A stretch of 64,000 nt of DNA from Pseudooceanicola algae (GTDB lineage: Bacteria > Pseudomonadota > Alphaproteobacteria > Rhodobacterales > Rhodobacteraceae), in NCBI RefSeq assembly GCF_003590145.2, contig NZ_CP060436.1, positions 1 to 64,000 of the forward strand, read 5' to 3'. The position numbers and the translations under genes were made by a program. Of this stretch, positions 27,600 to 45,872 are shown in pieces. Below the pieces are notes generated by a model. That model saw nothing but the letters and a program-made list of their open reading frames with translations. It was not told where the DNA came from and searched no databases. The first letter of the stretch is position 1. Each line of letters opens with the position of its first letter.

Positions 27600-28487
27600 A
27601 TGCTATATTCCATAACCCTGCGCATCCTCTACCAGTACAACAGCCCGGCCGAGGTCGGGCGCCACCTGCTGCGGGTCACGCCGCTGCATCTGCCGGGTAT
27701 CCAGATCCTGCGCAGCGCCCGCGTGACCTGTGACCCGGTGCCGTCCGAAACCCTTGTGCGGCGGGATTTCTTCGCCAATACCTGCACCGAGATTTCCTAC
27801 CGCGACAGCCAGGACCGCACCATGTTCGAGATGCAGGCCGAGGTCGAGCGGCTGGAGCCGGAGCCGGGCATGGATGTCTCGCCCCGCCGTCCGGGGTTCC
27901 GGGGCGAGGTTCAGGGGGCGACGTCCCTGCACCCCCTGTCGCCGCAGCATTTCCTGCCCGCCTCGCCCCGTGTGCCCCGGCATGACGGGATCGCCGCCTG
28001 GGCCGCTGCGGCCGCGCGCGAGGCCGATACCGCCTTTGCCGCCGTGGATACGATCTGCGCCGCGCTTCACCGGGACATGACCTTTGATTCCACCGCCACG
28101 CTGGTCGATACCCCGATCGCCAGGGCCTTTGATCTGCGGCGCGGAGTCTGCCAGGACTTCAGTCATATCGCGATCTGCGCGCTGCGGTCGCTGGGTATTC
28201 CGGCGGGCTATGTCTCGGGCTTTCTGCGTACGCTGCCGCCCGAGGGGCAGGCCCGGCTTCAGGGGGCGGATGCGATGCATGCCTGGGTCCGGGCCTGGTG
28301 CGGCAAGGACATGGGCTGGGTCGAATTCGACCCGACCAATGCGGTGCTGGCGGGCAGCGACCATGTGGTCATCGCCTACGGGCGGGATTATTTCGATGTC
28401 GCCCCGGTCAAGGGCGCCCTTCGGATCGCCGGCGGCCAGAGCACCAGCCAGGCCGTCGACATGATCCGCATCGGGGAAGGCCGCTAG
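27600..28487 (+). CDS. Transglutaminase-like cysteine protease/peptidase domain protein
   Basis: Encodes 295 residues. The ATG at 27600 lies two bases after the stop of the ATP-grasp gene. It has the bacterial transglutaminase N-domain (SITLRILYQYNSPAEVGRHL) and a transglutaminase core with C184 in RGVCQDFSH, H227 in DAMHAWVRAW and D244 in EFDPTNAV, so the triad is complete. Bacterial members usually act as peptidases or amide hydrolases and not cross-linkers. As third gene of the operon, it may cleave or process a peptide made by the DUF2126 and ATP-grasp proteins. Its stop codon shares a CTAG with the stop of the oxygenase gene on the other strand, a four-base tail-to-tail overlap. Confidence 0.92.
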   Translation: MLYSITLRILYQYNSPAEVGRHLLRVTPLHLPGIQILRSARVTCDPVPSETLVRRDFFANTCTEISYRDSQDRTMFEMQAEVERLEPEPGMDVSPRRPGFRGEVQGATSLHPLSPQHFLPASPRVPRHDGIAAWAAAAAREADTAFAAVDTICAALHRDMTFDSTATLVDTPIARAFDLRRGVCQDFSHIAICALRSLGIPAGYVSGFLRTLPPEGQARLQGADAMHAWVRAWCGKDMGWVEFDPTNAVLAGSDHVVIAYGRDYFDVAPVKGALRIAGGQSTSQAVDMIRIGEGR

Positions 28488-29455
28488 GCGGTCTTCGTCT
28501 CCGCCGAGGCCGCCTTGTAGGTGCGGTCATACATCGCCCGCAGGTGGTTTTCGACAGTGATGGGCGGGTATTTCGCCGTCTCACCGGCCGCGAGGCAGGT
28601 CGGGATACAGGCGACCTCGTGATCCTGCTGGCCGGTATAGAAGAACGGCACCGAATAGCGTTCCCGCCCCGAGCGGTTGATCACCCGGTGCAGCGTCGAC
28701 CGGTAGGTGTCGTTGGTCCAGCGCGCGATCATGTCCCCGAGGTTGACGACAAAAGCGCCGGGGATCGGCGGCGCGTCGATCCAACTGCCGTCGTCATCGC
28801 GCACCTGCAGGCCGCCGACATTGTCCTGCAGCAACATGGTCAGCCCGCCGAAATCCGTATGCGCCCCGGCGCCCATCTCGTCGGGCACATCGGGTTGCGC
28901 TGGCGGGTAATGCAGCAGCCGCAGGGTGGCGGCGGGCTGGTCGCAGAAATCGGCAAAATAGTCTTCGGGCAGGTCCAGCGACAGGGCCATGCCGCGCATC
29001 AGCGTATCCCCCAAAGTCGTGAGCGCGCCGAAATAGGCCATCATCGTGGGCCGGAAACCGGGCAGGTCGGCGGGCCATTGGTTCGGACCCTGATTGAACT
29101 TGCCGGTCGCCACGCGGGGATCGCGCGCGGTCAGCTCTTCGCCGATGTAATAGCCTTCCTTGCGGTCGGGCAGGGCGCCCGGTTGCAGGGTCTGACCGCC
29201 CAGTTGCTCATAGCCGCGATTGCAGGGCGACTGTGCCTTGTCCACTGCATCCTTGGCGGCGTCGGGCAGGTCGAACAGGCTGCGGGTCTCGGTCATCACG
29301 GCGTCGATCAACCCGTCGGGGATGCCATGGCCGGTGACGTAGAAGAACCCATGCGCCAGGCAGGCGCTGCGGATGCTGGCCCCGACCATCGCGCGGTCGG
29401 TCGGATCCGACGAGGCAAGGCCGGAAATGTCGATGATCGGAAGGCTCTTTGTCAC
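28484..29455 (-). CDS. 2-oxoglutarate/Fe(II)-dependent oxygenase, isopenicillin N synthase family (second gene)
   Basis: Encodes 323 residues from a GTG at 29455-29453, chosen because GGAG lies 8 bases upstream. The N-terminal DIOX_N domain (LPIIDISGLASSDPTDRAMV) precedes the jelly-roll core with the iron-binding HxD in GAHTDFGGLTMLLQD, the distal histidine in STLHRVINRSGRERYSVPFF, and the Arg that binds 2-oxoglutarate (RYSVPF). All cofactor residues are present. These enzymes hydroxylate, desaturate or demethylate small molecules. It follows a related oxygenase gene, with a strong hairpin between. The context is a purine-related transporter and deaminase island, so a purine or purine-like substrate is inferred but unproven. 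Confidence 0.92.
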   Translation of the reverse strand: MTKSLPIIDISGLASSDPTDRAMVGASIRSACLAHGFFYVTGHGIPDGLIDAVMTETRSLFDLPDAAKDAVDKAQSPCNRGYEQLGGQTLQPGALPDRKEGYYIGEELTARDPRVATGKFNQGPNQWPADLPGFRPTMMAYFGALTTLGDTLMRGMALSLDLPEDYFADFCDQPAATLRLLHYPPAQPDVPDEMGAGAHTDFGGLTMLLQDNVGGLQVRDDDGSWIDAPPIPGAFVVNLGDMIARWTNDTYRSTLHRVINRSGRERYSVPFFYTGQQDHEVACIPTCLAAGETAKYPPITVENHLRAMYDRTYKAASAETKTA

Positions 29456-29484
29456 GGGGGTCTCCGGTAACTGAAAGGGAAAGG

Positions 29485-29513
29485 GGCGGGCGGGGCGCTG
29501 ATCCCCGCCCGCC
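29485..29513 (-). terminator. Strong GC hairpin between the two oxygenase genes
   Basis: GGCGGGCGGGG (29485-29495) pairs perfectly over 11 bases with CCCCGCCCGCC (29503-29513). On the minus strand it is followed by CCTTTCCCTTTC, a poor T-tract. It may be a leaky terminator or an mRNA-stabilising hairpin, lowering expression of the second oxygenase relative to the first. Confidence 0.65.
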
Positions 29514-29521
29514 GAAAGGGG

Positions 29522-30517
29522 TCACTGCCTGGCGAAGTTCGCGCCAAGGCGCATCTGGATGTAATCGTGGCCGGTCATCGGCTCGTATTTCCCTTCGGGG
29601 CCTTCCAGCAGCGTGTCCATGTTGGCCTGGGCGAAATAGGCCATGGAGTAGCGCGGCCCGAGGTAATCGTCGGGCTTGGGCATCCGCACGCGGTGCAGGG
29701 TCGACTGCAGCTTGTCATCGGACCAGCGCATCAGCATGTCGCCGATGTTGCAGGTGACCACGCCGGCCAGCGGCGGCACATCGGTCCAGGCGATGGCGCG
29801 GCCCTTGGCGTCCTTGCCGGGGCAAAGCTGCAACCCGCCCTGGCCGGGCTTCTGGTGCAGCAGCGTCAGGCAGTCGAAATCCGTATGCGCCCCGGCCCGC
29901 CAGGCCTTGAAATCCGCCGGTTTGGCGTCTTCCATGCCAAGGTAGTGGATCAGCCGCAGGGTCGACTGATAAGCCTTGGTGTCCGGGTCGTGGCCGTCGG
30001 TGAAGAAATCCGTGGCAAAGCCCAGCCGGTCGGCAAAACAGCTGAGCACCTTCATCGCCAGCGCCCAGTTGTGCCGTTCGAAGGCCATCAGGACCTCCTT
30101 GAACTGGGGCACTTCGGCGCCTTTCGGCCAGAGGCCGGACATGCGGGGCAGGGTGATCTGGTAGCTTTCCTTGCGATCCGCCGTCCCGGTCGACGGGCGC
30201 ACCTGCTCCATGTATTCCCAGCCCGCGTTGGTGCCGGGCTTCAGCGGGTATTGCGCCTTTGCATCGGCGGGCAGGTCGAAGAATTCGCCCGACAGCCAGA
30301 AGGCTTCGTCGATCAGATCCTGCGGGATGCCGTGGTTGTAAAGCTGGAAGAACCCGATCTCGGTCGCCGCGTTCCACAGCGCTTCGGTGATCTCTTCCTT
30401 GCGGTTGAAGTAGTCCGACATGTCGATCTGGGGGATATCCCGTTCGACCAGCTCTCCTTCACCGCCGAAGCGAGTTTCGTCGTTCAGTTCCTGCAATCCG
30501 TAGCTGGTGTCAGTCAT
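29522..30517 (-). CDS. 2-oxoglutarate/Fe(II)-dependent oxygenase, isopenicillin N synthase family (first gene)
   Basis: Encodes 331 residues; the ATG at 30517-30515 is preceded by GAAGGAGAG. DIOX_N features (VERDIPQIDMSDYFNRKEEI) lead to the jelly-roll core with HxD in GAHTDFDCLTLLHQK, the distal histidine in STLHRVRMPKPDD and the 2-oxoglutarate-binding Arg in GPRYSMAYF. It is related to but distinct from the downstream oxygenase. The NMT1-type riboswitch at 30543-30585 lies 25 bases upstream of the start codon, so translation is probably controlled by xanthine or urate. This makes a role in purine oxidation or demethylation attractive; no member of this family with that activity is known to me. 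Confidence 0.93.
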   Translation of the reverse strand: MTDTSYGLQELNDETRFGGEGELVERDIPQIDMSDYFNRKEEITEALWNAATEIGFFQLYNHGIPQDLIDEAFWLSGEFFDLPADAKAQYPLKPGTNAGWEYMEQVRPSTGTADRKESYQITLPRMSGLWPKGAEVPQFKEVLMAFERHNWALAMKVLSCFADRLGFATDFFTDGHDPDTKAYQSTLRLIHYLGMEDAKPADFKAWRAGAHTDFDCLTLLHQKPGQGGLQLCPGKDAKGRAIAWTDVPPLAGVVTCNIGDMLMRWSDDKLQSTLHRVRMPKPDDYLGPRYSMAYFAQANMDTLLEGPEGKYEPMTGHDYIQMRLGANFARQ

Positions 30518-30542
30518 GGTCTCTCTCTCCTTCAGGTTTGGG

Positions 30543-30585
30543 GGAGCAATGACCTGTGCCGGGGGGCACTGCCTGCTTCTACTCC
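30543..30585 (-). promoter_or_regulatory. NMT1-motif riboswitch (xanthine-II type), copy inside the operon
   Basis: Read on the minus strand, this 43-nt element has GGAG pairing with CUCC (P1), the conserved 5' loop strand UAGAAGC-AGGCA, a GUGCC/GGCAC hairpin (P2) with a CCCC loop, and the 3' loop strand AGGUCAUUG. The blocks GAGUAGAAGC and AUUGCUC are shared exactly with the second copy at 34861-34913, while P2 differs in sequence but keeps pairing. That is the known shape of the NMT1 motif, which binds xanthine and uric acid. It sits between the amidohydrolase stop and the oxygenase start. The P1 3' strand CUCC could pair with the GGAG of the ribosome site, suggesting translational control; direction of control is inference. 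Confidence 0.82.
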
Positions 30586-30597
30586 AGGGGGTAGTTT

Positions 30598-31968
30598 CTA
30601 GACCGGCACAAGCGCGCTTTCGCGCTGCCGCCGGACAAGGCTCTGTGTGGCGCGGGCGGCCTCCTGGCCCAGTTCGCCCAGGTCGATGCCGGGCAGGAGG
30701 CCTGCGGCCAACACCACCTTGCCGTCCACGATCAGGTCGCGCACCACCAGTCCGCCGGTTATCACCGGGGCAAGTGCGCGGTCATGCAGGCCGAAGTTGC
30801 GCGGGGCAGTGAGGTCCAGCACCGCGATATCGGCGGCCATGCCGGGGGCCAGCGTGCCGACCTCGGGCATGTCGAGAACCCGCGCCCCGCCGGCGCTGGC
30901 CCAGTGCAGCACCTCTTCGGCGCGGACCGCTTCGGCGCCCTTGGTGGCGCGGTGCAGGGTAAAGGCGGAAAACAGCAGCGCGCCCATGTCGGCGGCTTCG
31001 TTCGCGGCGGCGCCATCGACGCCCATCGACACCTTGCCGCCCAGCCGGTGCAGCGCGTCTGCCGGCGCGATGCCCGACCCGAGCCGCGCATTGGCGTTGG
31101 GACAATGGGCCATGCCGGTGCCGGTCTGCGCCAGCAGCGCGACTTCGGAAGGGTCCAGGTCGACAAGATGGGCGAACCAGACATCCGGGCCCAGCCAGTC
31201 CTGCCCGGCCAGCCAGTGCACCGGGCGCTGGCCGTACTTGTCCATCGTGAAACGGGCGTAGCTTTCGTTTTCGCTAAGATGCGCATGCAGCAGCATCCCG
31301 TTTTCACGGCCGAAGCCTGCGATCTCGCGTAGTTCTTCCGGGGTGACGTTGAAGGTCGGCGTGGTCGGAGCCAGCGCGACCTTGCGCATCTTGCCATCGG
31401 CCCATTTTGCCGCCGTCTTCGCGGTTTCCGACAGGAAGGTGTCGAGGCTTTCGCAAGGCGCGGCCGGGATCGCCGGATCGTCGAAGGCGCGTCCCCGCGT
31501 CATGCCGCCCCGTGCCAGAACCGCCCGCAGGCCAAGCTTTCCCGCCTCTTCGAAGAAGACGTCCGACGGGTTGTAGTCGTAGCTTTCCGCATAAATGTAA
31601 TGATGCTCGGCCACCGTGGTCGCCCCGGTCAGGGCCAGTTCCACCAGCCCGACGCGGACAGCCGTGCGATAGGTGGCCTCGTCGAAATGCGGCCACCAGG
31701 TATAGGGCACATGCATCAGCCAGGGATCGAGCGGCAGGTTCATGCCCTTTGGTACCGCCTTCAGCAGCGATTGGTTGAGGTGGTGGTGGGTGTTCACCAG
31801 GCCGGGGATCACGACACATCCGGTGGCATCCAGCACCTCTTCGCCCGGGCGCGGCGTCAGCGCGCCCATCTCGGTGATCTTGCCGCCTTCGATACGGATC
31901 GCCCCGCTGAAGCGTTCGCCGTCGCCCAGGCGCCCGGTCAGGCAGTCGGAGATATGGGTGATGAGCAT
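30598..31968 (-). CDS. Amidohydrolase, 8-oxoguanine deaminase / TRZ-ATZ family
   Basis: Encodes 456 residues. Metal-dependent hydrolase features are in order: IPGLVNTHHHLNQSLLKAVP with the HxH pair, a histidine in MLLHAHLSENESY, a histidine in GMAHCPNANARLGSG, and the catalytic aspartate in SMGVDGAAANEAADMGALLF. The overall sequence resembles 8-oxoguanine deaminases and hydroxydechloroatrazine-type hydrolases. The former convert 8-oxoguanine to uric acid and ammonia. Its start lies one base after the permease stop on the minus strand (TGAGATG), so it is in the transporter operon. The neighbouring xanthine/urate-type riboswitches fit a product of urate. Exact substrate is inferred from family and context. 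Confidence 0.85.
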   Translation of the reverse strand: MLITHISDCLTGRLGDGERFSGAIRIEGGKITEMGALTPRPGEEVLDATGCVVIPGLVNTHHHLNQSLLKAVPKGMNLPLDPWLMHVPYTWWPHFDEATYRTAVRVGLVELALTGATTVAEHHYIYAESYDYNPSDVFFEEAGKLGLRAVLARGGMTRGRAFDDPAIPAAPCESLDTFLSETAKTAAKWADGKMRKVALAPTTPTFNVTPEELREIAGFGRENGMLLHAHLSENESYARFTMDKYGQRPVHWLAGQDWLGPDVWFAHLVDLDPSEVALLAQTGTGMAHCPNANARLGSGIAPADALHRLGGKVSMGVDGAAANEAADMGALLFSAFTLHRATKGAEAVRAEEVLHWASAGGARVLDMPEVGTLAPGMAADIAVLDLTAPRNFGLHDRALAPVITGGLVVRDLIVDGKVVLAAGLLPGIDLGELGQEAARATQSLVRRQRESALVPV

Positions 31969-31969
31969 C

Positions 31970-32821
31970 TCAGCGGCTTTCCTTGGGCAGCGACCAGGGG
32001 AAGAAGTACTTCTGCGTCTGGCTGACCGCCTGGAACAGAAGAAGGCTCATCACCAGCAGCACGACCAGCCCCGCCCAGGCCTGCGGCAGCCGGAACATCG
32101 AGGTCGAGAACTGGATGAAATACCCGATGCCCACGTCTGCGGCGACGAATTCGGCAACCACCGCGCCGATGACGCTGAGCGTGATCGAGATCTTGAGCCC
32201 GGAAAAGATATAGGGCGTCGCATAGGGCAGGCGGATCTGGGTGATCTCGCGGCGCACCGGGGCGCGCAGGGACCGCGACAGTTCGATCAGTTCGGGCGGG
32301 GTGGCCATCAGCCCGGTGGTCATAGACACCACCAGCGGGAAGAACGAGATCATGAAGGTGATGACGATGCGCGGCGCGTCATCGGTGCCCAGTACCACGA
32401 TGATGATCGGCGCGACGGCCACGACCGGCACCGACTGGATCACCACCAGCAGCGGATAAAGCGACCGGCTGAGAAAGCGCGACTTGGCCAGGCCGATGGC
32501 GATCGGCAGCGAGACCGCGATCGAGACCAGGAAGCCCAGAAGCGAGACCCGCAGGGTGGCCCAGACATGTTCCATCCAGCGCTCAAAGCTGACCACCTCG
32601 AACCCGCCGAGGATGCGGGACGGGGCCGGCAGGACAAAGCTCGGCACCGCGAAAAGCCGCGTGCCGCCTTCCCACAGCGCCAGGATCAGCACGAAGGTCA
32701 GCAGGGGCAGCAGGACCGGGGTGCGGATCAGGCGTTCGGTCAGCGGCAGTCTGGGGGCGACGCTTGTGGAGGGTGTGGGAGTCTCGGCGGGCGCGCGGGG
32801 CGTATCGGCTTGGGCGGTCAT
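31970..32821 (-). CDS. ABC transporter permease (NitT/TauT/NMT1 type)
   Basis: Encodes 283 residues with about six membrane helices and the binding-protein-dependent permease signature (EITQIRLPYATPYIFSGLKI, the EAA loop that contacts the ATPase). The N-terminal 30 residues are Pro/Thr-rich and cytoplasmic. It starts one codon gap after the ATPase gene. With the ATPase at 32823 and the binding protein at 33721 it forms an importer. The riboswitches around the operon suggest xanthine, urate or a related purine as cargo. Other NMT1-type importers carry pyrimidines, taurine or nitrate, so the cargo remains an inference. Confidence 0.92.
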   Translation of the reverse strand: MTAQADTPRAPAETPTPSTSVAPRLPLTERLIRTPVLLPLLTFVLILALWEGGTRLFAVPSFVLPAPSRILGGFEVVSFERWMEHVWATLRVSLLGFLVSIAVSLPIAIGLAKSRFLSRSLYPLLVVIQSVPVVAVAPIIIVVLGTDDAPRIVITFMISFFPLVVSMTTGLMATPPELIELSRSLRAPVRREITQIRLPYATPYIFSGLKISITLSVIGAVVAEFVAADVGIGYFIQFSTSMFRLPQAWAGLVVLLVMSLLLFQAVSQTQKYFFPWSLPKESR

Positions 32822-32822
32822 G

Positions 32823-33608
32823 TCAGGCTACCTTGTCCTTGATCAGCAGGCCGCGCAGATGGCCGAGGAAATCCTGCATCTCGGCAGAGCGCAGTGAGCT
32901 TTCGTCGCGGGGCCGTCCCAAAGGCACCTTCAGATCGGCGATGACCCGGCCGGGGCGTTCGGACATCACCACGACCCGGTCGGCAAGGATGACCGCTTCG
33001 GGGATCGAATGGGTGATGAACAGCACGGTCTTGGGGCTGGCCTGCCAGAGGCGCAGCAATTCGAACCCCATGGCATCGCGGGTCAGTGCGTCGAGCGCCG
33101 AGAAGGGTTCGTCCATCAGCAGGATGTCGGGGTTCAGAAACAGGGCGCGGGCGATGCCGACGCGCTGCTGCATGCCGCCCGACAACTCGCCCGGCAGGCG
33201 GTCCTCGAACCCGGCAAGGCCGCAAGTCGCGATGATGGTGCGGGCATGGTCGCGATCCTTGCGGGACACGCGCCCGCGCTTGTGCCGGGCCGGGAAGACG
33301 ACATTGTCCTCGACGCTGGCCCAGGGCAGCAGGGTGGCCTGCTGAAAGACGATACCGATATCGTCGCGCGGTTGCGTCACCGGCACGCCGAAGACCGAGG
33401 CAACGCCGGCAGTGGGCTTGATCAGTCCGGCCGTCAGGCGCAGCAGGGTCGATTTCCCGCAGCCCGAGGGGCCGAGCACGGCTACGAATTCATGGCGGCG
33501 GATGGTCAGGTCCACCCCGGACAGGGCGGTCAGCGGCCCCGCATCGGTTAGGAAGGTCTGGCCGACATCGGCAAAGCTGATGGCATCGGTTTCTAGGGGC
33601 ATGGACAT
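32823..33608 (-). CDS. ABC transporter ATP-binding protein (NitT/TauT/NMT1 type)
   Basis: Encodes 261 residues. Walker A is GPSGCGKST, the signature is LSGGMQQRVGIARAL, Walker B is ILLMDEPFSALD, and the H-loop is VLFITHSIPEA. The ATG at 33608 follows GAGAAGAGAG; a second ATG two codons in is also possible. The gene is separated from the binding-protein gene by 112 bases that contain a strong hairpin (33680-33701), so the binding protein is probably made in excess over the membrane components. It powers import of the substrate bound by the 33721 product. Confidence 0.94.
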   Translation of the reverse strand: MSMPLETDAISFADVGQTFLTDAGPLTALSGVDLTIRRHEFVAVLGPSGCGKSTLLRLTAGLIKPTAGVASVFGVPVTQPRDDIGIVFQQATLLPWASVEDNVVFPARHKRGRVSRKDRDHARTIIATCGLAGFEDRLPGELSGGMQQRVGIARALFLNPDILLMDEPFSALDALTRDAMGFELLRLWQASPKTVLFITHSIPEAVILADRVVVMSERPGRVIADLKVPLGRPRDESSLRSAEMQDFLGHLRGLLIKDKVA

Positions 33609-33679
33609 CTCTCTTCTCGCATCGCGCGGCGATCCGGGCCTGACATGGGGCGGCAGCGCGCCGCCGCCCCAGTTTTGGT

Positions 33680-33701
33680 GACCGGCCTCGCGCGGCCGGT
33701 C
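33680..33701 (-). terminator. Hairpin between binding-protein and ATPase genes (partial terminator or stabiliser)
   Basis: GACCGGCC (33680-33687) pairs perfectly with GGCCGGTC (33694-33701) around TCGCGC. It lies within the transporter operon and has no T-tract. In ABC operons such hairpins typically protect the upstream binding-protein message or reduce read-through. Confidence 0.6.
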
Positions 33702-33720
33702 TTGGCGACGTCAGCGCGGC

Positions 33721-34713
33721 TTATTCCGGCAGGTAGTCGCGCGAAACCGCGGTTTCCGGATCAAGGTCTGCGGCGTCCAGACCCTGGCTTGCCGCGACGC
33801 GGTCCCAGGTGGCTGCCACGCGGTCGGCGTCAAAGGCGCCAAGACCGAATTCGTCGGTCACCTCGTTGAAGGCCAGCTTGGAGGCATCCATCCAGGACCC
33901 CATCACGTCTTCGGCTGTCAGTTCAGGCACCTGGGCGGCGACGGCTTCGGCGGCGATCTGGGGGTTCTCGTAGGCGAATTCCAGCGAGGCCTTGAAGGCC
34001 GCGACAAAGGCCTTGGTCAGTTCGGGGTTGGCGGCCATGTAATCGTCGTTGCCGACCAGCGATGCGGAATAAAGTTCCAGCCCGGCATCGGCCCAGGGCA
34101 GATAAACGATTTCCTTGCCGGCTTCGCTGGCCTGGTTGGAATAGCGTGTCACATCCGTCAGCCAGGCGATGATGACATCGGACTGGCCGGTCATCAGCAG
34201 CGGGCCAAGCGCGCCGGGATCGGCCTTGGTCAGGGTGATGTCATCCTCGGTCATGCCATTGTCGGCCAGCACCAGCGGCAGGAAGACGTTGGAGGAGGTG
34301 AAGGGCGAGGTGGCGATGGAATGCCCCTTCACGTCTGCGATCGAGGCGATGCCAGTGTCCTTGGTGGTGTAGAAGGCATGGGGACCGGTGTTGAAGATCG
34401 ACATGATCGCGGTCACCGGCACATTTTCCATCGCCCTGGCTGCCATCACGGCACCCATCCCGGCCGAGCCGAATTCGGCCACGCCGGTGGCCAGCTTGGT
34501 GATCGCCTCGGAAGACCCGCGACCGGGCGAGACGGTGACGTCAAAACCGGCTTCTTCGCAGATACCCTGTTCGATGCAGACATAGATCGGGGCCTTGTCG
34601 CCCCCGGGCAGCCAGTCCAGTTGGAAGGTGATTTCCTCGAGGGCCGAGGCGGGCATGGCAAAGGCCGTGCTGGCAAGCGTGGCCGCAAGGGCCGTAGCGC
34701 GAAGTCGGGTCAT
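33721..34713 (-). CDS. ABC transporter substrate-binding protein, NMT1/THI5-like
   Basis: Encodes 330 residues from the ATG at 34713; the frame extends further upstream but the signal peptide starts here (MTRLRATALAATLASTAFAM, cleaved after PASA). The NMT1/THI5 fold is evident from ITFQLDWLPGGDKAPIYVCI, then GRGSSEAITKLATGVAEFGS and GHSIATSPFTSSNVFLPLVL. It captures the substrate in the periplasm for the permease at 31970. A riboswitch of the class named after this family lies at 34861-34913, about 150 bases upstream. The family includes pyrimidine-precursor and purine-related binders; the riboswitch favours a purine. Confidence 0.92.
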   Translation of the reverse strand: MTRLRATALAATLASTAFAMPASALEEITFQLDWLPGGDKAPIYVCIEQGICEEAGFDVTVSPGRGSSEAITKLATGVAEFGSAGMGAVMAARAMENVPVTAIMSIFNTGPHAFYTTKDTGIASIADVKGHSIATSPFTSSNVFLPLVLADNGMTEDDITLTKADPGALGPLLMTGQSDVIIAWLTDVTRYSNQASEAGKEIVYLPWADAGLELYSASLVGNDDYMAANPELTKAFVAAFKASLEFAYENPQIAAEAVAAQVPELTAEDVMGSWMDASKLAFNEVTDEFGLGAFDADRVAATWDRVAASQGLDAADLDPETAVSRDYLPE

Positions 34714-34860
34714 TGGAGCTTCCCTGTCATGTTGTTGTTTTGATTTGTATTTGCCGACGCCTGCAGCAAGCGGCAGCGCGGGGCTGCGGCAAGGGGGCGG
34801 CACGTCGGGATCAAGTAGTGCAGTCGCAATTGTTCACCTCAACCGTAGAATGGCCTCGAT

Positions 34861-34913
34861 GAGCAATGTCAGGTCCCGGATCCGCCGTGGCGGGGGCCTT
34901 ACCGCTTCTACTC
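34861..34913 (-). promoter_or_regulatory. NMT1-motif riboswitch (xanthine-II type), leader of the transporter operon
   Basis: Read on the minus strand, this 53-nt element starts GAGUAGAAGC, continues GGUAA, then an imperfect P2 formed by GGCCCC and GGGACC with an inner CCGC/GCGG hairpin, then UGACAUUGCUC. The terminal GAG/CUC form P1. The conserved blocks are the same as in the copy at 30543-30585. It lies in the 501-bp gap between the binding-protein gene (34713) and the divergent deaminase (35215). The roughly 147 bases between element and start codon could hold a terminator or anti-ribosome-site structure; I did not find a clear one. The rest of the gap (34914-35214) shows no gene. Confidence 0.8.
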
Positions 34914-35214
34914 GGCTTCATTGCTAGTCGTTCGGGACCGATTCCAGAACGGAGTCTGCCCGGTTTCCATCCGGGCATCGGCGGATGTGACTAATTTTGG
35001 GGCAGTATTTGTATTGTTTGCTTTCAAATTGGGCATGTATCCAGCCGGGTGCCGCGAAAACCGCCTGTTGCGGGTCATGCGCCTCTGGCCACGGGGGGCC
35101 AGCGGGGGCTAGGCCAACCGGGCGTGGGTGAAGCCCTGCGCCCGGCCTCCGGACCGCCTCCGGACGAGACAGCGCCCGGCCAGCGGATCGGCCGGGTCAG
35201 ACGAGGAGCCCACC

Positions 35215-35703
35215 ATGCCCATCAGCCCCGAACAGGATCTTGCCCTTCTGCGCCGGTCGATCGAACTGGCCCAGGAAAGCCGCGACCGTGGCGATCATCC
35301 CTTTGGCGCCCTGCTGGCCAGCCCGGACGGAGAGATCCTGCTGGAAGACATGAACACCGGCGGCGTCAAGGGCGACCGCACCGGCCATGCCGAACGCAAC
35401 CTGATGACCGCGGCCTCGCTGAAATACGACGTCGATTTCCTGCGCGGCTGCACGATGTATACCTCGGCCGAACCCTGCGCCATGTGCGCCGGATCGGTCT
35501 ATTGGACCGGCGTGGGCCGTGTTGTGCATGGCATGAGCGAAAAGGCCCTGAAGGCCCTGATCGGCCCGGACCCCGAGAACCTGACCATGGACCTGCCCTG
35601 CACCGCGATCTTTGCCGCCGGCCAGCGCCCGGTCGAGGTTGTCGGCCCGCTGCTGAGCGAAGAAAGCGCGGTCGTGCACGACGGCTTCTGGGTCGGTCTT
35701 TGA
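35215..35703 (+). CDS. Nucleobase/nucleoside deaminase, cytidine-deaminase fold (guanine-deaminase-like)
   Basis: Encodes 162 residues from the ATG at 35215, preceded by GAGGAG. The zinc-binding CDA motifs are present: H58 and catalytic E60 in GHAERNL, and C88/C91 in AEPCAMCAGSVYW. The sequence DHPFGALLASPDGEILLEDM resembles small guanine/nucleoside deaminases and tRNA adenosine deaminase relatives. Guanine deaminase activity would give xanthine, the ligand expected for the nearby riboswitches. It is divergent from the transporter operon. Substrate is inferred; cytosine or another base cannot be excluded. A terminator hairpin follows at 35733. Confidence 0.85.
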   Translation: MPISPEQDLALLRRSIELAQESRDRGDHPFGALLASPDGEILLEDMNTGGVKGDRTGHAERNLMTAASLKYDVDFLRGCTMYTSAEPCAMCAGSVYWTGVGRVVHGMSEKALKALIGPDPENLTMDLPCTAIFAAGQRPVEVVGPLLSEESAVVHDGFWVGL

Positions 35704-41715: not shown

Positions 41716-41851
41716 GCTGGTCTGAAGGGGCAGGGTGCTTAGGGTTCCGTTCGCGCAAGCGAAGCCTGGTCCGAGAAGCGCCGCCTTTCCGGCAAAATCC
41801 GGTCAGGTACACGGCGGGGCAAAATCCCGGGAGGTTACTGCGCAGGCCAGC
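41716..41851 (+). promoter_or_regulatory. Guanidine-I riboswitch (ykkC/yxkD motif)
   Basis: P1 is formed by GCTGGTCTG (41716-41724) and CAGGCCAGC (41843-41851), nine pairs with one G-U. The conserved ykkC blocks are in order: TTAGGGTTCCG (41739-41749), a TTCGC-GCAA-GCGAA hairpin (41750-41763), CTGGTCCGAGA (41766-41776), ACACGGCGGGGCAAAATCCC (41810-41829) and GGGAG. These match guanidine-I consensus elements. The leader precedes an ABC transporter and a GdmH-like enzyme, which fits guanidine and argues against the ppGpp or PRPP variants. The 78 bases to the start codon at 41930 include CTCTTTTCG; the expression platform was not resolved. The earlier part of the gap, 41451-41715, shows no gene. 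Confidence 0.9.
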
Positions 41852-41929: not shown

Positions 41930-43006
41930 ATGCCGACACGCAAGACCCTTGCCGCCACCGCCCTTGGTGCCGTGCTGACGGCGGGCCTGCTGGCCCCTGC
42001 CGTGCAAGCGCAGGAAAAGACGGACTTCAAGATTGCCTGGACGATCTATGCCGGCTGGATGCCCTGGGGCTATATCCAGGATTCCGGCATCATGGACAAG
42101 TGGGCCGCGAAATACGACCTCGATATCGAGGTCGTGCAGCTGAACGATTATATCGAATCGATCAACCAGTATACCGCCGGGGCCTTCGACGGGGTCACCG
42201 CCACCACCATGGACGCGCTGTCGATCCCGGCAGGCGGCGGCGTGGACAGCACGGCGCTGATCATCGGCGATTATTCGGACGGCAATGACGCGATCATCGC
42301 CAAGTCCGACATCGGCCTGGGCGATCTGGCGGGGATGCCGGTGAACCTGGTGGAACTGTCGGTCTCGCACTACCTGCTGGCCCGCGCACTGGAAAGCGCG
42401 GAACTGTCCGAACGTGATCTGGGCGGGGTCATCAATACCTCGGACGCGGATATGATCGCCGCCTACCAGACCCAGGATGTCGAGGTCGTGGTGACCTGGA
42501 ACCCCCTGGTCGAGGCGATCATGGAGGGGGGCGATGCCCACAAGATCTATGATTCCAGCGATATCCCGGGCGAGATCATCGACGCGCTATTCGTCAGCAC
42601 CGAGGTGCTGGAGGCCAACCCCGACTTCGGCAAGGCGCTGACCGGGGCCTGGTATGAAACCATGGCGCTGATGGATTCCGGCACGCCTGAGGGCGACGAA
42701 GCCCTGTCGGCCATGGCCGAGGCCGCCGGCACCGATCTGGCAGGCTACAAGCGCCAGCTTGCGGCGACGGCGATGTTCTATACCCCCGGCGCGGCCAAGG
42801 ATTTCACCGAAGGCGCGGCGCTGCCCGACACCATGGTCTCGGTCGCGGAATTCCTGTTCGACAAGGGTATCCTTGGCGAAGGCGCGCCCGGTGCCGATTT
42901 CGTCGGTGTGGCCTATCCCGATGGCTCGACCACGGGGGATGCGGGCAATGTCAACATGCGCTTCGACACGACCTATGTGACCATGGCGGCCGAAGGCGCG
43001 CTTTGA
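41930..43006 (+). CDS. ABC transporter substrate-binding protein (guanidine-associated, NitT/TauT-like)
   Basis: Encodes 358 residues with a signal peptide (MPTRKTLAATALGAVLTAGL, cleaved near VQAQE). The mature protein has the NitT/TauT-like fold (FKIAWTIYAGWMPWGYIQDS, DYIESINQYTAGAFDGVTAT, VVVTWNPLVEAIMEGGDAHK). Transporters of this type lie directly under guanidine-I riboswitches in many bacteria, commonly with urea carboxylase; here they precede a guanidine hydrolase. Guanidine or a guanidino compound is the likely cargo. It is the first gene after the riboswitch, 78 bases downstream, and begins a compact operon. Confidence 0.92.
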   Translation: MPTRKTLAATALGAVLTAGLLAPAVQAQEKTDFKIAWTIYAGWMPWGYIQDSGIMDKWAAKYDLDIEVVQLNDYIESINQYTAGAFDGVTATTMDALSIPAGGGVDSTALIIGDYSDGNDAIIAKSDIGLGDLAGMPVNLVELSVSHYLLARALESAELSERDLGGVINTSDADMIAAYQTQDVEVVVTWNPLVEAIMEGGDAHKIYDSSDIPGEIIDALFVSTEVLEANPDFGKALTGAWYETMALMDSGTPEGDEALSAMAEAAGTDLAGYKRQLAATAMFYTPGAAKDFTEGAALPDTMVSVAEFLFDKGILGEGAPGADFVGVAYPDGSTTGDAGNVNMRFDTTYVTMAAEGAL

Positions 43007-43070
43007 TCCACGGGCCGGGCGGCACGGCGTTGCCCGGACCTTTCCCCGCCCCTGAACGGGATAGACGCCC

Positions 43071-43883
43071 ATGCGCCTGATCAACCAAAGCCCCGCGCGG
43101 CCCGCCGCCATCGTGCTGATGATCCTGCCCTTCGCGGCGCTGGCCATCGCCTATGCGGTCGGCTCGGAAATCCGGCTGGCAGCCAATCCGCAGGACAAGC
43201 TGCTGCCCGCACCGTCCCAGATCTGGGATACGGCGGTGCGTCTGTTCACCGAAGGCGACCGGCGCACGGGGCGCATCCTGTTGTGGTACGACACCGGGGC
43301 GTCGCTGGGGCGGCTGGCCATCGGGGTGGCGATTTCGGCCCTGTCGGCGCTGGTCTTCGGCATGGCCATCGGCATGTTGCCTTATGCGCGCCGCACGTTG
43401 GGTGGTTTCGTCGGCGTGATCTCGATGGTGCCGCCGCTGGCGATCCTGCCGATCCTGTTCATCATCTTCGGGCTGGGAGAGGTGTCCAAGGTGGCGCTGA
43501 TCGTGGTCGGGATCACCCCGGTGATGATCCGCGACCTGTCGGCCCGCACGCTTGAAATCCCGCGCGAGATGATCGTCAAGGCCGAGACGCTGGGGGCGTC
43601 TTCTGCGGTCATCGCGCTGCGTGTGGTGCTGCCGCAGATCCTGCCGCGGCTGATCTCGTCCATACGGCTGTCGCTTGGGCCGGCCTGGCTGTTCCTGATC
43701 GCCGCCGAAGCCATCGCAGCGCAGCTTGGCCTTGGCTACCGGATCTTTCTGGTCCGGCGCTACCTGGCGATGGACGTGATCCTGACCTACGTGATCTGGA
43801 TCACCTTGCTGGCCTTCGTGATGGATTACGCCCTGCGCCTGCTGGCGCGGAAGGCCTTCCCCTGGACGGAGGCCGCGCTGTGA
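43071..43883 (+). CDS. ABC transporter permease (guanidine-associated)
   Basis: Encodes 270 residues with about six membrane helices (first at about residues 12-28, LMILPFAALAIAYAVG) and the EAA-type loop AETLGASSAVIALRVVLPQI, which docks with the ATPase. It is 64 bases after the binding protein and overlaps the ATPase start by four bases. It forms the channel for the cargo delivered by the 41930 product. Confidence 0.92.
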   Translation: MRLINQSPARPAAIVLMILPFAALAIAYAVGSEIRLAANPQDKLLPAPSQIWDTAVRLFTEGDRRTGRILLWYDTGASLGRLAIGVAISALSALVFGMAIGMLPYARRTLGGFVGVISMVPPLAILPILFIIFGLGEVSKVALIVVGITPVMIRDLSARTLEIPREMIVKAETLGASSAVIALRVVLPQILPRLISSIRLSLGPAWLFLIAAEAIAAQLGLGYRIFLVRRYLAMDVILTYVIWITLLAFVMDYALRLLARKAFPWTEAAL

Positions 43884-44653
43884 GCTTCGTCGAGGTGCGC
43901 AACATCTTTCAAAGCTACGGCAAACGCCCGATCCTGGAGCGCGTCAACCTGGATGCGGAGGAAGGCGAGTTCGTCTCGATCGTCGGTGCCTCGGGCTGTG
44001 GCAAGTCCACCTTCCTGCGGCTGCTGCTGGCGCAGGAGGTCCCGACGCGCGGCCATATCCGCATCGACGGCAACGACCCCGCGGTCGAACCGGGGCGCGA
44101 ACGCGGTGTGGTGTTTCAGCGATATTCGGTCTTTCCGCATATGACCGTGCGGGAAAACATCGTGGCTGGCAAAAGCTTTCACCGCCCCCTTGGGCGCTTC
44201 TTTGGCGCCGAACGGCGCGCGGCGCAGGCCCGCGCCGACAAGACGCTGGACCGCATCGGACTGGCCCATGTGGCGGATGCCTATCCGGCGATGCTGTCGG
44301 GCGGCATGCAGCAGCGGCTGGCCATCGGTCAGGCGCTGGTGGCGCAACCGCGCATCCTGCTGCTGGACGAACCCTTCGGCGCGCTGGACCCCGGCACCCG
44401 GCTGGCCATGCATGCCTTCCTGACCGAATTGCGCAGCCAGACCGCCATGACAGTCTTCATGGTCACCCATGACCTCGAAGAAGGTTTCAAGCTGGGCGAC
44501 CGGGTGCTGGTTTTCGACAAGACCCGCTGGGACGTGGATTACCCGGACAATTACGGGGCCACGATCACCTACGATTTCGACGCCAGAAATGGCGGCATTC
44601 CCTTCCAAAATATCATGGAGGAACAAGATGTTCTGCTTTCCGCAACAGCGTAG
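43880..44653 (+). CDS. ABC transporter ATP-binding protein (guanidine-associated)
   Basis: Encodes 257 residues from a GTG at 43880 that overlaps the permease stop (GTGA). Walker A is GASGCGKST, signature LSGGMQQRLAIGQAL, Walker B ILLLDEPFGALD, H-loop FMVTHDLEE. After the nucleotide-binding domain there is a C-terminal extension (KTRWDVDYPDNYGATITYDF and about 20 more residues) not needed for ATP binding but common in this subgroup. The 3' end overlaps the start of the guanidine hydrolase gene by 26 bases, so expression of transport and catabolism is tied. Confidence 0.93.
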   Translation: MSFVEVRNIFQSYGKRPILERVNLDAEEGEFVSIVGASGCGKSTFLRLLLAQEVPTRGHIRIDGNDPAVEPGRERGVVFQRYSVFPHMTVRENIVAGKSFHRPLGRFFGAERRAAQARADKTLDRIGLAHVADAYPAMLSGGMQQRLAIGQALVAQPRILLLDEPFGALDPGTRLAMHAFLTELRSQTAMTVFMVTHDLEEGFKLGDRVLVFDKTRWDVDYPDNYGATITYDFDARNGGIPFQNIMEEQDVLLSATA

Positions 44654-45872
44654 CCGCTCGCACCACCCGGCCGACCGCCGGACCCCTGACCGGCGGGCGC
44701 ATCACCCCGACCTGACCAAGCTGCTTGGCTGGAAGGCGATGCAGAAGGAAGCCGAGCTTTCCGGCGCCGGCTGGGCCGAGGAACGCAAATGGGCGCTGCG
44801 CATGGGGCTGACCGGCGCGGACAGCATCGACGACAAGTCGATCCCGACCTTCGCGCGGGGCGAACTGCCACATTTCGCCGGTATCAACACGTTCCTCAAG
44901 GCGCCCTATGCCGAGGATGTCACCGAGGTGCAGCATTATGATGCGACCGTGCTGGGTATCCCCTTTGACGGGGGCACCACTTATCGCCCCGGCACCCGCT
45001 TCGGGCCTCAGGGCCTGCGCAAGATCTCGGCCCTTTACACGCCTTACAACTACGAACTGGGTGTCGATCTGCGTGAACAGATGACGCTGTGCGATGCGGG
45101 CGACGTGTTCACCATTCCGGCCAATATCGAAAAGAGCTTTGACCAGATTTCCCGGGCGGTCAGCCATGTGTTCTCCTCCGGGTCGCTGCCGATCATGATC
45201 GGCGGGGACCATTCCATCGGCTTTCCCTGCGTGCGCGGGATCGCGGAGTGCACCAGCAAGAAGATCGGGATCGTCCACTTCGACCGCCATGCGGATATCC
45301 AGGAAAAGGACCTGGACGAACGGATGCACACAACGCCCTGGTTCCATTCGACCAACCTGCCCAATGTCCCGGCGAAGAACCTGGTGCAGGTCGGCATTGG
45401 CGGCTGGCAGGTGCCGCGCGACGCGGTGAAGGTGGCGCGGGATCGCGAGACCAACATCATCACCATGTCCGACATGGAACGCATGGGCATCGACAAGACC
45501 GCCGAAATGGCGCTCGAAATGGCCTGGGACGGGGTCGACATGGTCTACATGTCCTTCGACATCGACAGCATCGACTGCGGCTTCGTGCCCGGCACAGGCT
45601 GGCCCGAACCCGGTGGCTTCCTGCCGCGCGAGGCGCTGGCGCTGGCCTCCAAGGTTGCGGCCGAAGGCATCTGCGGCATGGAGTTGGTCGAGGTTTCGCC
45701 GCCCTATGATACCTCGGACATCACGGCCCTGATGGGGACGCGGGTCATCGTCGATGTGCTCGGCTCGATGGTCTCGGCTGGCACGTTGGGCAACCACAAG
45801 CGCCATATCGACAAGCCGGTGACAATCCCGCATGGGGAATTCGAAGGCAACCGCTGGTCCAACAAGCGCTAA
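44628..45872 (+). CDS. gdmH: Guanidine hydrolase (GdmH-like, arginase/agmatinase superfamily)
   Basis: Encodes 414 residues from the ATG at 44628, with GGAGGA just upstream and inside the ATPase gene. The ureohydrolase metal ligands are all visible: H195 in GGDHS, D219, H221 and D223 in HFDRHADI, D311 and D313 in SFDIDSIDCGFVPGTG. The usual DAHxD is DRHAD here. The long N-terminal region (about 90 residues before YDATVLGIPFDGGTTYRPGT) is longer than in agmatinases and like the guanidine hydrolase group, whose characterised cyanobacterial member (Sll1077) is nickel-dependent and makes urea and ammonia. The guanidine-I riboswitch and transporter make this assignment strong. Residues 8-30 are rich in His and Arg. 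Confidence 0.87.
   Translation: MFCFPQQRSRSHHPADRRTPDRRAHHPDLTKLLGWKAMQKEAELSGAGWAEERKWALRMGLTGADSIDDKSIPTFARGELPHFAGINTFLKAPYAEDVTEVQHYDATVLGIPFDGGTTYRPGTRFGPQGLRKISALYTPYNYELGVDLREQMTLCDAGDVFTIPANIEKSFDQISRAVSHVFSSGSLPIMIGGDHSIGFPCVRGIAECTSKKIGIVHFDRHADIQEKDLDERMHTTPWFHSTNLPNVPAKNLVQVGIGGWQVPRDAVKVARDRETNIITMSDMERMGIDKTAEMALEMAWDGVDMVYMSFDIDSIDCGFVPGTGWPEPGGFLPREALALASKVAAEGICGMELVEVSPPYDTSDITALMGTRVIVDVLGSMVSAGTLGNHKRHIDKPVTIPHGEFEGNRWSNKR

Follow-up and report, generated by a model that had tools for sequence, protein, structure and literature searches.

Two xanthine-I elements in one operon

The subject of this analysis is an operon on the minus strand of a 64,000-nucleotide stretch of Pseudooceanicola algae DNA (contig NZ_CP060436.1, positions 1 to 64,000; hereafter the window), which carries two elements of the xanthine-I riboswitch type (NMT1 RNA, RF03054 in Rfam), one at its head and one internal. 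By family match, the genes downstream of both elements are of purine transport and oxidation types. The elements and the genes around them are as follows.

34856..34918, minus strand: head xanthine-I-type element, a variant with compressed P2a/J2 and a long P2 (RF03054 31.4 bits; 43.4 bits with R2, a model described below)
30539..30589, minus strand: internal xanthine-I riboswitch aptamer, between the amidohydrolase and oxygenase 1 genes (RF03054 43.4 bits)
33721..34713, minus strand: NMT1-type ATP-binding cassette (ABC) substrate-binding protein (PF09084, E 1.6e-39)
32823..33608, minus strand: ABC transporter ATPase (PF00005)
31970..32821, minus strand: ABC transporter permease (PF00528)
30598..31968, minus strand: amidohydrolase, purine-deaminase type (NCBIfam PRK12393.1, 570 bits against a cut-off of 543; best solved relative 2paj)
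29522..30517, minus strand: 2-oxoglutarate (2OG)-Fe(II) oxygenase 1 (DIOX_N and 2OG-FeII_Oxy in Pfam; nearest solved chain thymine dioxygenase 5c3p)
28484..29455, minus strand: 2OG-Fe(II) oxygenase 2 (Pfam)
35128..35703, plus strand: divergent TadA/guanine-deaminase-like nucleobase deaminase (PF00383)

The internal element matches RF03054 above the gathering score of 36 bits (E 2.8e-6 in 64 kb) while the head element stays below it (E 6.7e-4 in 7.6 kb), so that the expectation of the first-pass annotation that both copies would exceed the covariance-model cut-off held for the internal copy only. Across the whole 4.09-Mb genome, the two are the best RF03054 matches, with the next at 21.3 bits, and chance repeats were ruled out for this reason. 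The elements lie on the same strand, 4.27 kb apart with four genes in between. That annotation had located both correctly on the minus strand and was also right that GAGUAGAAGC and AUUGCUC are identical in the two, that the hairpins between these strands differ in sequence and pair in both, and that 25 bases separate the CUCC of the internal copy from the ATG of oxygenase 1 (30517). The head copy does precede the gene of the NMT1-type binding protein, as it proposed, with 147 bases between the element and the start codon of the gene (34713). The central observation of two NMT1 elements in one operon, on the uptake and oxygenase sides, is confirmed, with the qualification that the head copy is not a typical member of the class. 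In the literature NMT1 RNA is called xanthine-I (PMC9295807), not xanthine-II as first named, and by analogy with the class the ligand in this operon would be xanthine or urate.

The internal copy contains GUAGAAGC, C15, G41, A45 and U46, with P1, P2a and P2b all paired in the RF03054 alignment. It has an A at position 16 and G.U as pair 18-43, and the amidohydrolase stop codon lies 13 bases upstream of its GAG. The head copy does not show the canonical P2a/J2 arrangement (pair 19-42, with A20 and G40 G41 in junction J2).

Single bases separate the ATPase gene from the permease gene and the permease gene from the amidohydrolase gene. The other gaps measure 112 bases (binding protein to ATPase), 80 bases (amidohydrolase to oxygenase 1, riboswitch included) and 66 bases (between the oxygenases). 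A scan for sigma-70-like sites, which covers that promoter type only, found none in 28300-35300, with 0.8 expected, and we infer a single transcript over all operon genes. The gene types seen here (NMT1/THI5-like, PRK12393 amidohydrolase, pcbC-like oxygenase and tadA) are listed for the class by Yu and Breaker (PMC7373994). The best solved relatives of the divergent deaminase include CMP/dCMP deaminase 5xkq and guanine deaminase 1wkq. A terminator mechanism was rejected: five terminator-like sites were found in the 7-kb region, where 4.0 are expected, and none is at either element. Separately, an 11-pair GC hairpin between the oxygenase genes (29485-29513, minus strand) is followed by CCTTTCCCTT and may be a terminator or an mRNA-end element. 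GC-rich inverted repeats also lie between the binding-protein and ATPase genes (33620-33720, minus strand), one at 33646-33671 and another recognized by eye.

Conservation of the pair and of the head variant

Relatives of oxygenase 1 were collected, the best 80 of 583 confirmed loci were taken, and RF03054 was run at E up to 0.1 on the genomes of 79 of them (all but L008); five matches elsewhere in these genomes were excluded from mapping. An element was called head when it lay at most 320 nucleotides (nt) upstream of the binding-protein match and internal when it lay at most 140 nt upstream of the oxygenase match. A binding protein was encoded upstream on the same strand in 52 of the 79 loci; these had both elements in 36 cases, the internal element only in 13, the head element only in two and neither in one. 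Where the binding protein was absent (27 loci), 23 loci carried an element at most 140 nt from the oxygenase and four carried none there. At least two same-strand elements were present in 45 of the 79 loci. For L008, the head was located by regular expression and the internal element by eye. The presence of the head element in the 52 operons also varied with the position of the TadA-like gene: it was found in none of the 10 operons headed by such a gene on the same strand, in 27 of the 31 with a divergent one and in all 11 with none nearby.

Two genome samples not selected for the oxygenase, 390 genomes order-wide and 398 phylum-wide, contained RF03054 matches at E<=0.001 in 9 and 17 genomes, respectively, with the window's own genome in both. 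Same-strand pairs within 4 kb were seen in G054 and G139 (both 0.33 kb), G493, G607 and G588; the distance in the own genome is 4.3 kb. The samples overlap, since the coordinates in G139 match the genome of L039. From these counts and those at the oxygenase loci, the element is rare, yet the pair is frequent wherever the operon occurs.

Scores below 36 bits were obtained for 22 of 50 head and other elements, Rhodobacterales-type heads among them, and for 6 of 72 internal elements. Thirteen heads, from the window and 12 loci, were aligned; they were chosen for clean alignment, and L007, L008, L009, L014, L019, L021, L039, L043 and L045 were among those left out. The canonical pair 19-42 is present in none of the 13, and in all of them a shifted pair 19-41 (A-U in seven, G-U in four, G-C in two) plus a single bulged G takes its place. 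We describe the head copy as a variant and not as a class member because pair 19-42 is absent, the pair is shifted and one G is unpaired. The 5' strand of the window head has one additional A, so that A19/G42 may form a mismatch instead of a clean bulge. A wider regular-expression set of 25 distinct CUCA heads, some of them canonical, had 19-41 paired in 20.

Eight cells were changed on both sides of a pair, where shuffles give 3.8 and 3 of 500 reach that number; with the window omitted there were again 8, where shuffles give 2.9 and none of 500 reaches it. The number of pairs changed on both sides, three, was within the shuffles with the window included (181 of 500 as high; 22 of 500 without it), as was the number of further pair types in the 13-head alignment, eight (218 of 500 as high). 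The model R2, built from the 12 relatives without the window, recovered the window head at 43.4 bits with E 3.8e-11 in 64 kb. A second model that includes the window, R1, was applied to heads outside its training set and gave 63.6 bits for L014 (core identical to a training row), 50.8 for L039, 49.5 for L021, 49.2 for L007, 40.8 for L019, 39.7 for L045, 39.3 for L008 and 36.2 for L009. R1 is no clean separator of the variant, since canonical heads reach up to 45.5 bits and the internal element of L084 also scores well. Its order-wide search gave E<=0.01 in 6 of 390 genomes, three already known from RF03054 (own, G054 and G139) and three weak (21.7-22.6 bits). Judged by its sequence, the head copy is a conserved variant of xanthine-I that lies below the Rfam cut-off.

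A third, weak xanthine-like element was noticed at 86109-86155 (minus strand) of contig C2, corresponding to 1501-1547 of L003 (RF03054 21.3 bits, R1 23 bits). It has exact GAGUAGAAGC and UUGCUCAUCC and is similar to the first element of L043. Another NMT1-like binding protein is encoded approximately 0.73 kb downstream of it, and between the two, on the opposite strand, lies a RidA-like open reading frame, or ORF (both named by eye).

Head and internal copies also differ consistently at other positions. The 79 loci contain 122 elements, and core motifs anchored all but one of them (an internal element of L019, which was dropped), leaving 121. At position 16, 48 of 50 head and other elements carry G and 60 of 71 internal elements carry A or U; at position 43, A is found in 44 of the 50 and U in 57 of the 71. 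Pair 18-43 is U-A in 42 of the 50 head and other elements and U.U or G.U in 56 of the 71 internal ones. The window follows the split at position 16, with G16 in its head and A16 in its internal copy. In our alignment of the numbering, position 16 corresponds to G12 of the crystal structure, where a G12A mutation lowers xanthine affinity 7-fold, and the structure authors describe position 12 as lacking high conservation and as largely tolerant of change (PMC8266621). With A at 16 and G.U at 18-43, the window's internal copy probably has the lower affinity of the two and needs more ligand to respond, by extrapolation from a mutant in another background. It is plausible from the sequences that one ligand controls uptake and oxidation separately, as the first-pass annotation suggested, and the word separately gains strength because the copies differ.

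Two further sequence changes were observed. A G11-to-U core change (GUAUAAGC) is present in 9 of the 71 anchored internal elements and 1 of the 50 head and other elements, plus L008 by eye. Its internal carriers are L007, L008, L009, L011, L014, L015, L028, L051, L076 and L082, which include the window's three best-matching relatives. In the head of L031 (3689-3746), P1 is apparently altered on both sides (CGGUA/UUGCCG replacing GAGUA/UUGCUC), a change that would back P1 independently.

Predicted expression platforms

The following features were predicted downstream of the two aptamers.

30518..30554, minus strand: competing hairpin GGUC..CUCC/GGAG..GACC, which would cover the oxygenase 1 Shine-Dalgarno site without P1 (minimum free energy fold of 30597-30500)
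30527..30532, minus strand: Shine-Dalgarno site AAGGAG of oxygenase 1 (from the sequence)
34829..34867, minus strand: competing hairpin AUUG.UCAUC../..GGUGA.CAAU, over the leader ribosome site and the first base of its UUG (minimum free energy fold of 34920-34826)
34710..34829, minus strand: putative leader ORF of 39 codons with a UUG start and Shine-Dalgarno site GAGGUG at 34840-34835; its stop overlaps the binding-protein start as AUGA

The CUCC strand of the internal copy is complementary to the GGAG of oxygenase 1, and the predicted hairpin covers that site, in agreement with the earlier suggestion that CUCC could mask GGAG. The pairing probability is 1.00 for both hairpins. For the internal one the fold z is -1.85 (8 of 200 shuffles equally stable), and the head fold, at -0.86 (38 of 200), is not unusually stable overall. 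A G before GAG together with a C after CUC, giving CUCC, was found in 57 of 62 internal elements located by regular expression (61 loci and the window) and in none of 49 head and other elements. The earlier idea that the two copies use different mechanisms was not supported: in both, the 3' strand of P1 seems to be set against a ribosome site, and it is the targets that differ. For the head, the likely target is the start of the short leader ORF and not, as had been supposed, that of the transporter gene.

The distance from the head element to the binding-protein start is approximately 90 to 190 bases among the head loci. With binding-protein starts picked by script, 30 of 38 head loci had an ATG no more than 70 bases from the element whose frame stays open to the binding-protein start, whereas dinucleotide-shuffled leaders gave 14.6; for all start codons, the count was 34 against 25.4 expected. 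In the window, the leader starts with UUG at 34829 and overlaps the ATG at 34713 as AUGA. The frame of the leader relative to the gene varies among loci (mostly 0 or 2) and for that reason suggests translational coupling rather than a conserved peptide.

Folding was done with ViennaRNA, comparing P1 forced with the free ensemble, with eight mononucleotide shuffles of the downstream bases for each element. Elements without a start codon were dropped (L046, one of 63 internal elements; L043 and L071, two of 49 head and other elements), and one false regular-expression match near an unrelated ATPase was removed. In the ligand-free ensemble, pairing of the site with the 3' strand of P1 had a probability above 0.5 for 23 of 62 internal elements and 27 of 47 head and other elements, against shuffle means of 7.9 and 8.4. 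On P1 formation, the site opened by more than 0.1 in 31 of 62 internal elements (14.9 in shuffles) and 23 of 47 head and other elements (11.4), and closed in 5 of 62 (7.2) and 1 of 47 (1.1). With P1 penalised in the comparison instead of free, 35 of 62 internal elements opened and four closed. Among 24 elements from other genomes with start codons that we assigned, 13 opened and none closed by >0.1, a count made without shuffle control. On average over the folds, the results point to ligand-activated translation. For the window head, predicted site access is 0.51 with P1 and 0.31 without.

Matched pairing was examined by permutation. The P1 strand and tail of each head paired with its own leader site at -8.21 kcal and with those of other loci at -6.96, and none of 2000 permutations was as low. 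The test was positive for heads (n 45, p 0.0005), for CUCA-type heads (n 24, p 0.0015) and for long-spacer internal elements (p 0.013), with p values that take no account of kinship among the loci.

An upstream C-run of short-spacer internal elements was considered as a general anti-Shine-Dalgarno strand and not adopted, as it usually offers two G-C pairs only (by eye); the idea does suit the window's internal copy, where the run is CCU. In L098, L102 and L104, from genomes of other classes, P1 is followed by CUCUUGAAG, the complement of a CUUCAAGAG that lies far from it, ahead of the oxygenase start; this different platform could have another sign. In 33 of 52 loci with a gene upstream of the internal element, the stop codon of that gene comes no more than 40 bases ahead of the element, and given this closeness one guess is that ribosomes terminating there touch P1.

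Proposed mechanism, rival readings and known systems

The reading that we favor, with about even confidence, is that the two elements are cis-acting xanthine/urate ON switches acting on the translation of different cistrons. The P1 3' strand of each copy would have two alternative partners, the P1 5' strand when ligand is bound and the downstream ribosome-binding site when it is not. The internal copy would control the Shine-Dalgarno site of oxygenase 1, and the head copy the start of the leader ORF, which would be coupled to the binding protein via the AUGA overlap. Ligand would thus let P1 form and free the sites, turning both genes on with xanthine or urate, and the internal copy (A16, G.U at 18-43) would bind more weakly and respond at higher ligand. 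We infer ligand identity, sign, affinities and coupling alike, and function and thresholds are predictions. The fuller version, a two-step threshold device in which the head variant admits leader translation and uptake at low xanthine or urate and the weaker internal copy turns on the oxygenases at higher levels, is more tentative, and we consider it rather unlikely as a whole.

Several points weigh against the ON reading. The folds omit ligand and tertiary energy, and the regular expression missed internal elements with GUAUAAGC or a long P2, of which RF03054 recovered ten that stand outside the fold tests. The window's internal site is predicted to open only slightly (access 0.46 with P1, 0.38 without) because the upstream CCU can pair with the AGG of the site once P1 forms, and the direction of switching for this copy is ambiguous in the folds. 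Permutation gave no matched pairing for internal elements (n 53, p 0.51) or for CUCG-type heads (n 21, p 0.82). The window leader is outside the 30 of 38 since its start is UUG, and the locus counts are not independent, the loci being related to one another. In addition, the only published reporter, with one Hydrogenophaga intermedia element in E. coli, points to an OFF switch (PMC7373994).

That result is the basis of a rival which we regard as possible though short of probable, namely that both copies are OFF switches as published, with the ligand-bound aptamer hiding the ribosome site and product feedback acting on uptake and oxidation. A binding-dead mutant of one H. intermedia element was expressed more (PMC7373994), the window's internal site is partly masked even with P1 formed, and the pairing of the upstream CCU with AGG next to P1 could, with the same standing, provide the OFF route for this copy. 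This rival has to face the excess of openings over closings in both element types, which exceeds the shuffles, and the complete lack of closings by >0.1 among the 24 elements from other genomes. We think it improbable that the head variant of this lineage senses another ligand, or binds xanthine differently, in which case the operon would answer two compounds. Its P2a has one pair fewer and its J2 is smaller, pair 19-41 occurs with three pair types, and J2 nucleotides shape the pocket (PMC8266621); however, in our numbering the window head keeps the pocket nucleotides U5 A6 G7 A8 A9 G10 C11, A39 and U40 of that structure and has a G able to substitute for G35. Least credible of all, and in our view very improbable, is a head copy that is a decaying non-functional duplicate, with regulation by the internal copy only. 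Such decay would fit the score below the Rfam cut-off and the loss of pair 18-43 in the heads of the close relatives L008 and L009, but not the R2 score obtained without the window in training, nor the pairing of P2, nor the exact GAGUAGAAGC and GACAUUGCUC in the window and, of the 12 other aligned heads, in all but L037, which has GAGUAUAAGC.

With the xanthine-I class the window elements share GUAGAAGC in J1, the CAUUGC strands, P1, P2a/P2b and the gene types. They differ from it in having two copies per operon that are consistently different in sequence, in the shortened P2a and reduced J2 of the head, and in a predicted sign opposite to the published OFF result. The divergent NMT1 pair of Hydrogenophaga intermedia S1 (PMC7373994, Figure 5 legend) likewise has two elements near such genes, but these are adjacent and in opposing orientations, whereas in the window one strand carries both elements, separated by 4.3 kb and four genes. 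Tandem riboswitches are likewise pairs of same-class aptamers on a single presumed transcript, and are defined by a gap of at most 300 nt without an intervening ORF (PMC9481103), so the window pair was rejected as a tandem in that sense. The same survey names Xanthine-I among the classes not found in tandem. In seven related loci (L043, L039, L021, L059, L066, L069 and L080), same-strand elements are 166-282 nt apart, and a leader ORF may lie between them. In L059, L066 and L069, the first element scores 48.0-51.8 bits and the second 35.8-40.9 (that of L069 just below the cut-off). In searches of open-licence papers, mostly at the level of listings, we found no report of two same-strand xanthine-I elements in one operon, although Figure 1B/S1 of Yu and Breaker may show some. 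It is well supported that the riboswitch class is a known one and that the arrangement and the sub-variant are new.

Elsewhere in the window, a Guanidine-I riboswitch was found at 41728-41835 (plus strand, 79 bits). ORFs 3' of it (41930-45872, plus strand) resemble by eye an ABC binding protein, a permease, an ATPase and an agmatinase/arginase-type hydrolase and, given the riboswitch before them, perhaps form a guanidine uptake and hydrolysis operon.

The xanthine-I pair makes a testable case of the general question why an mRNA should read the same ligand twice. Its natural controls are matched aptamers, head and internal, with a difference at a position where mutation alters affinity. It adds a conserved aptamer variant under the present Rfam cut-off and gives reason to re-examine the sign of xanthine-I switches. 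The related loci further show xanthine-I elements less than 300 nt apart, which the 2022 survey (PMC9481103) had not found.

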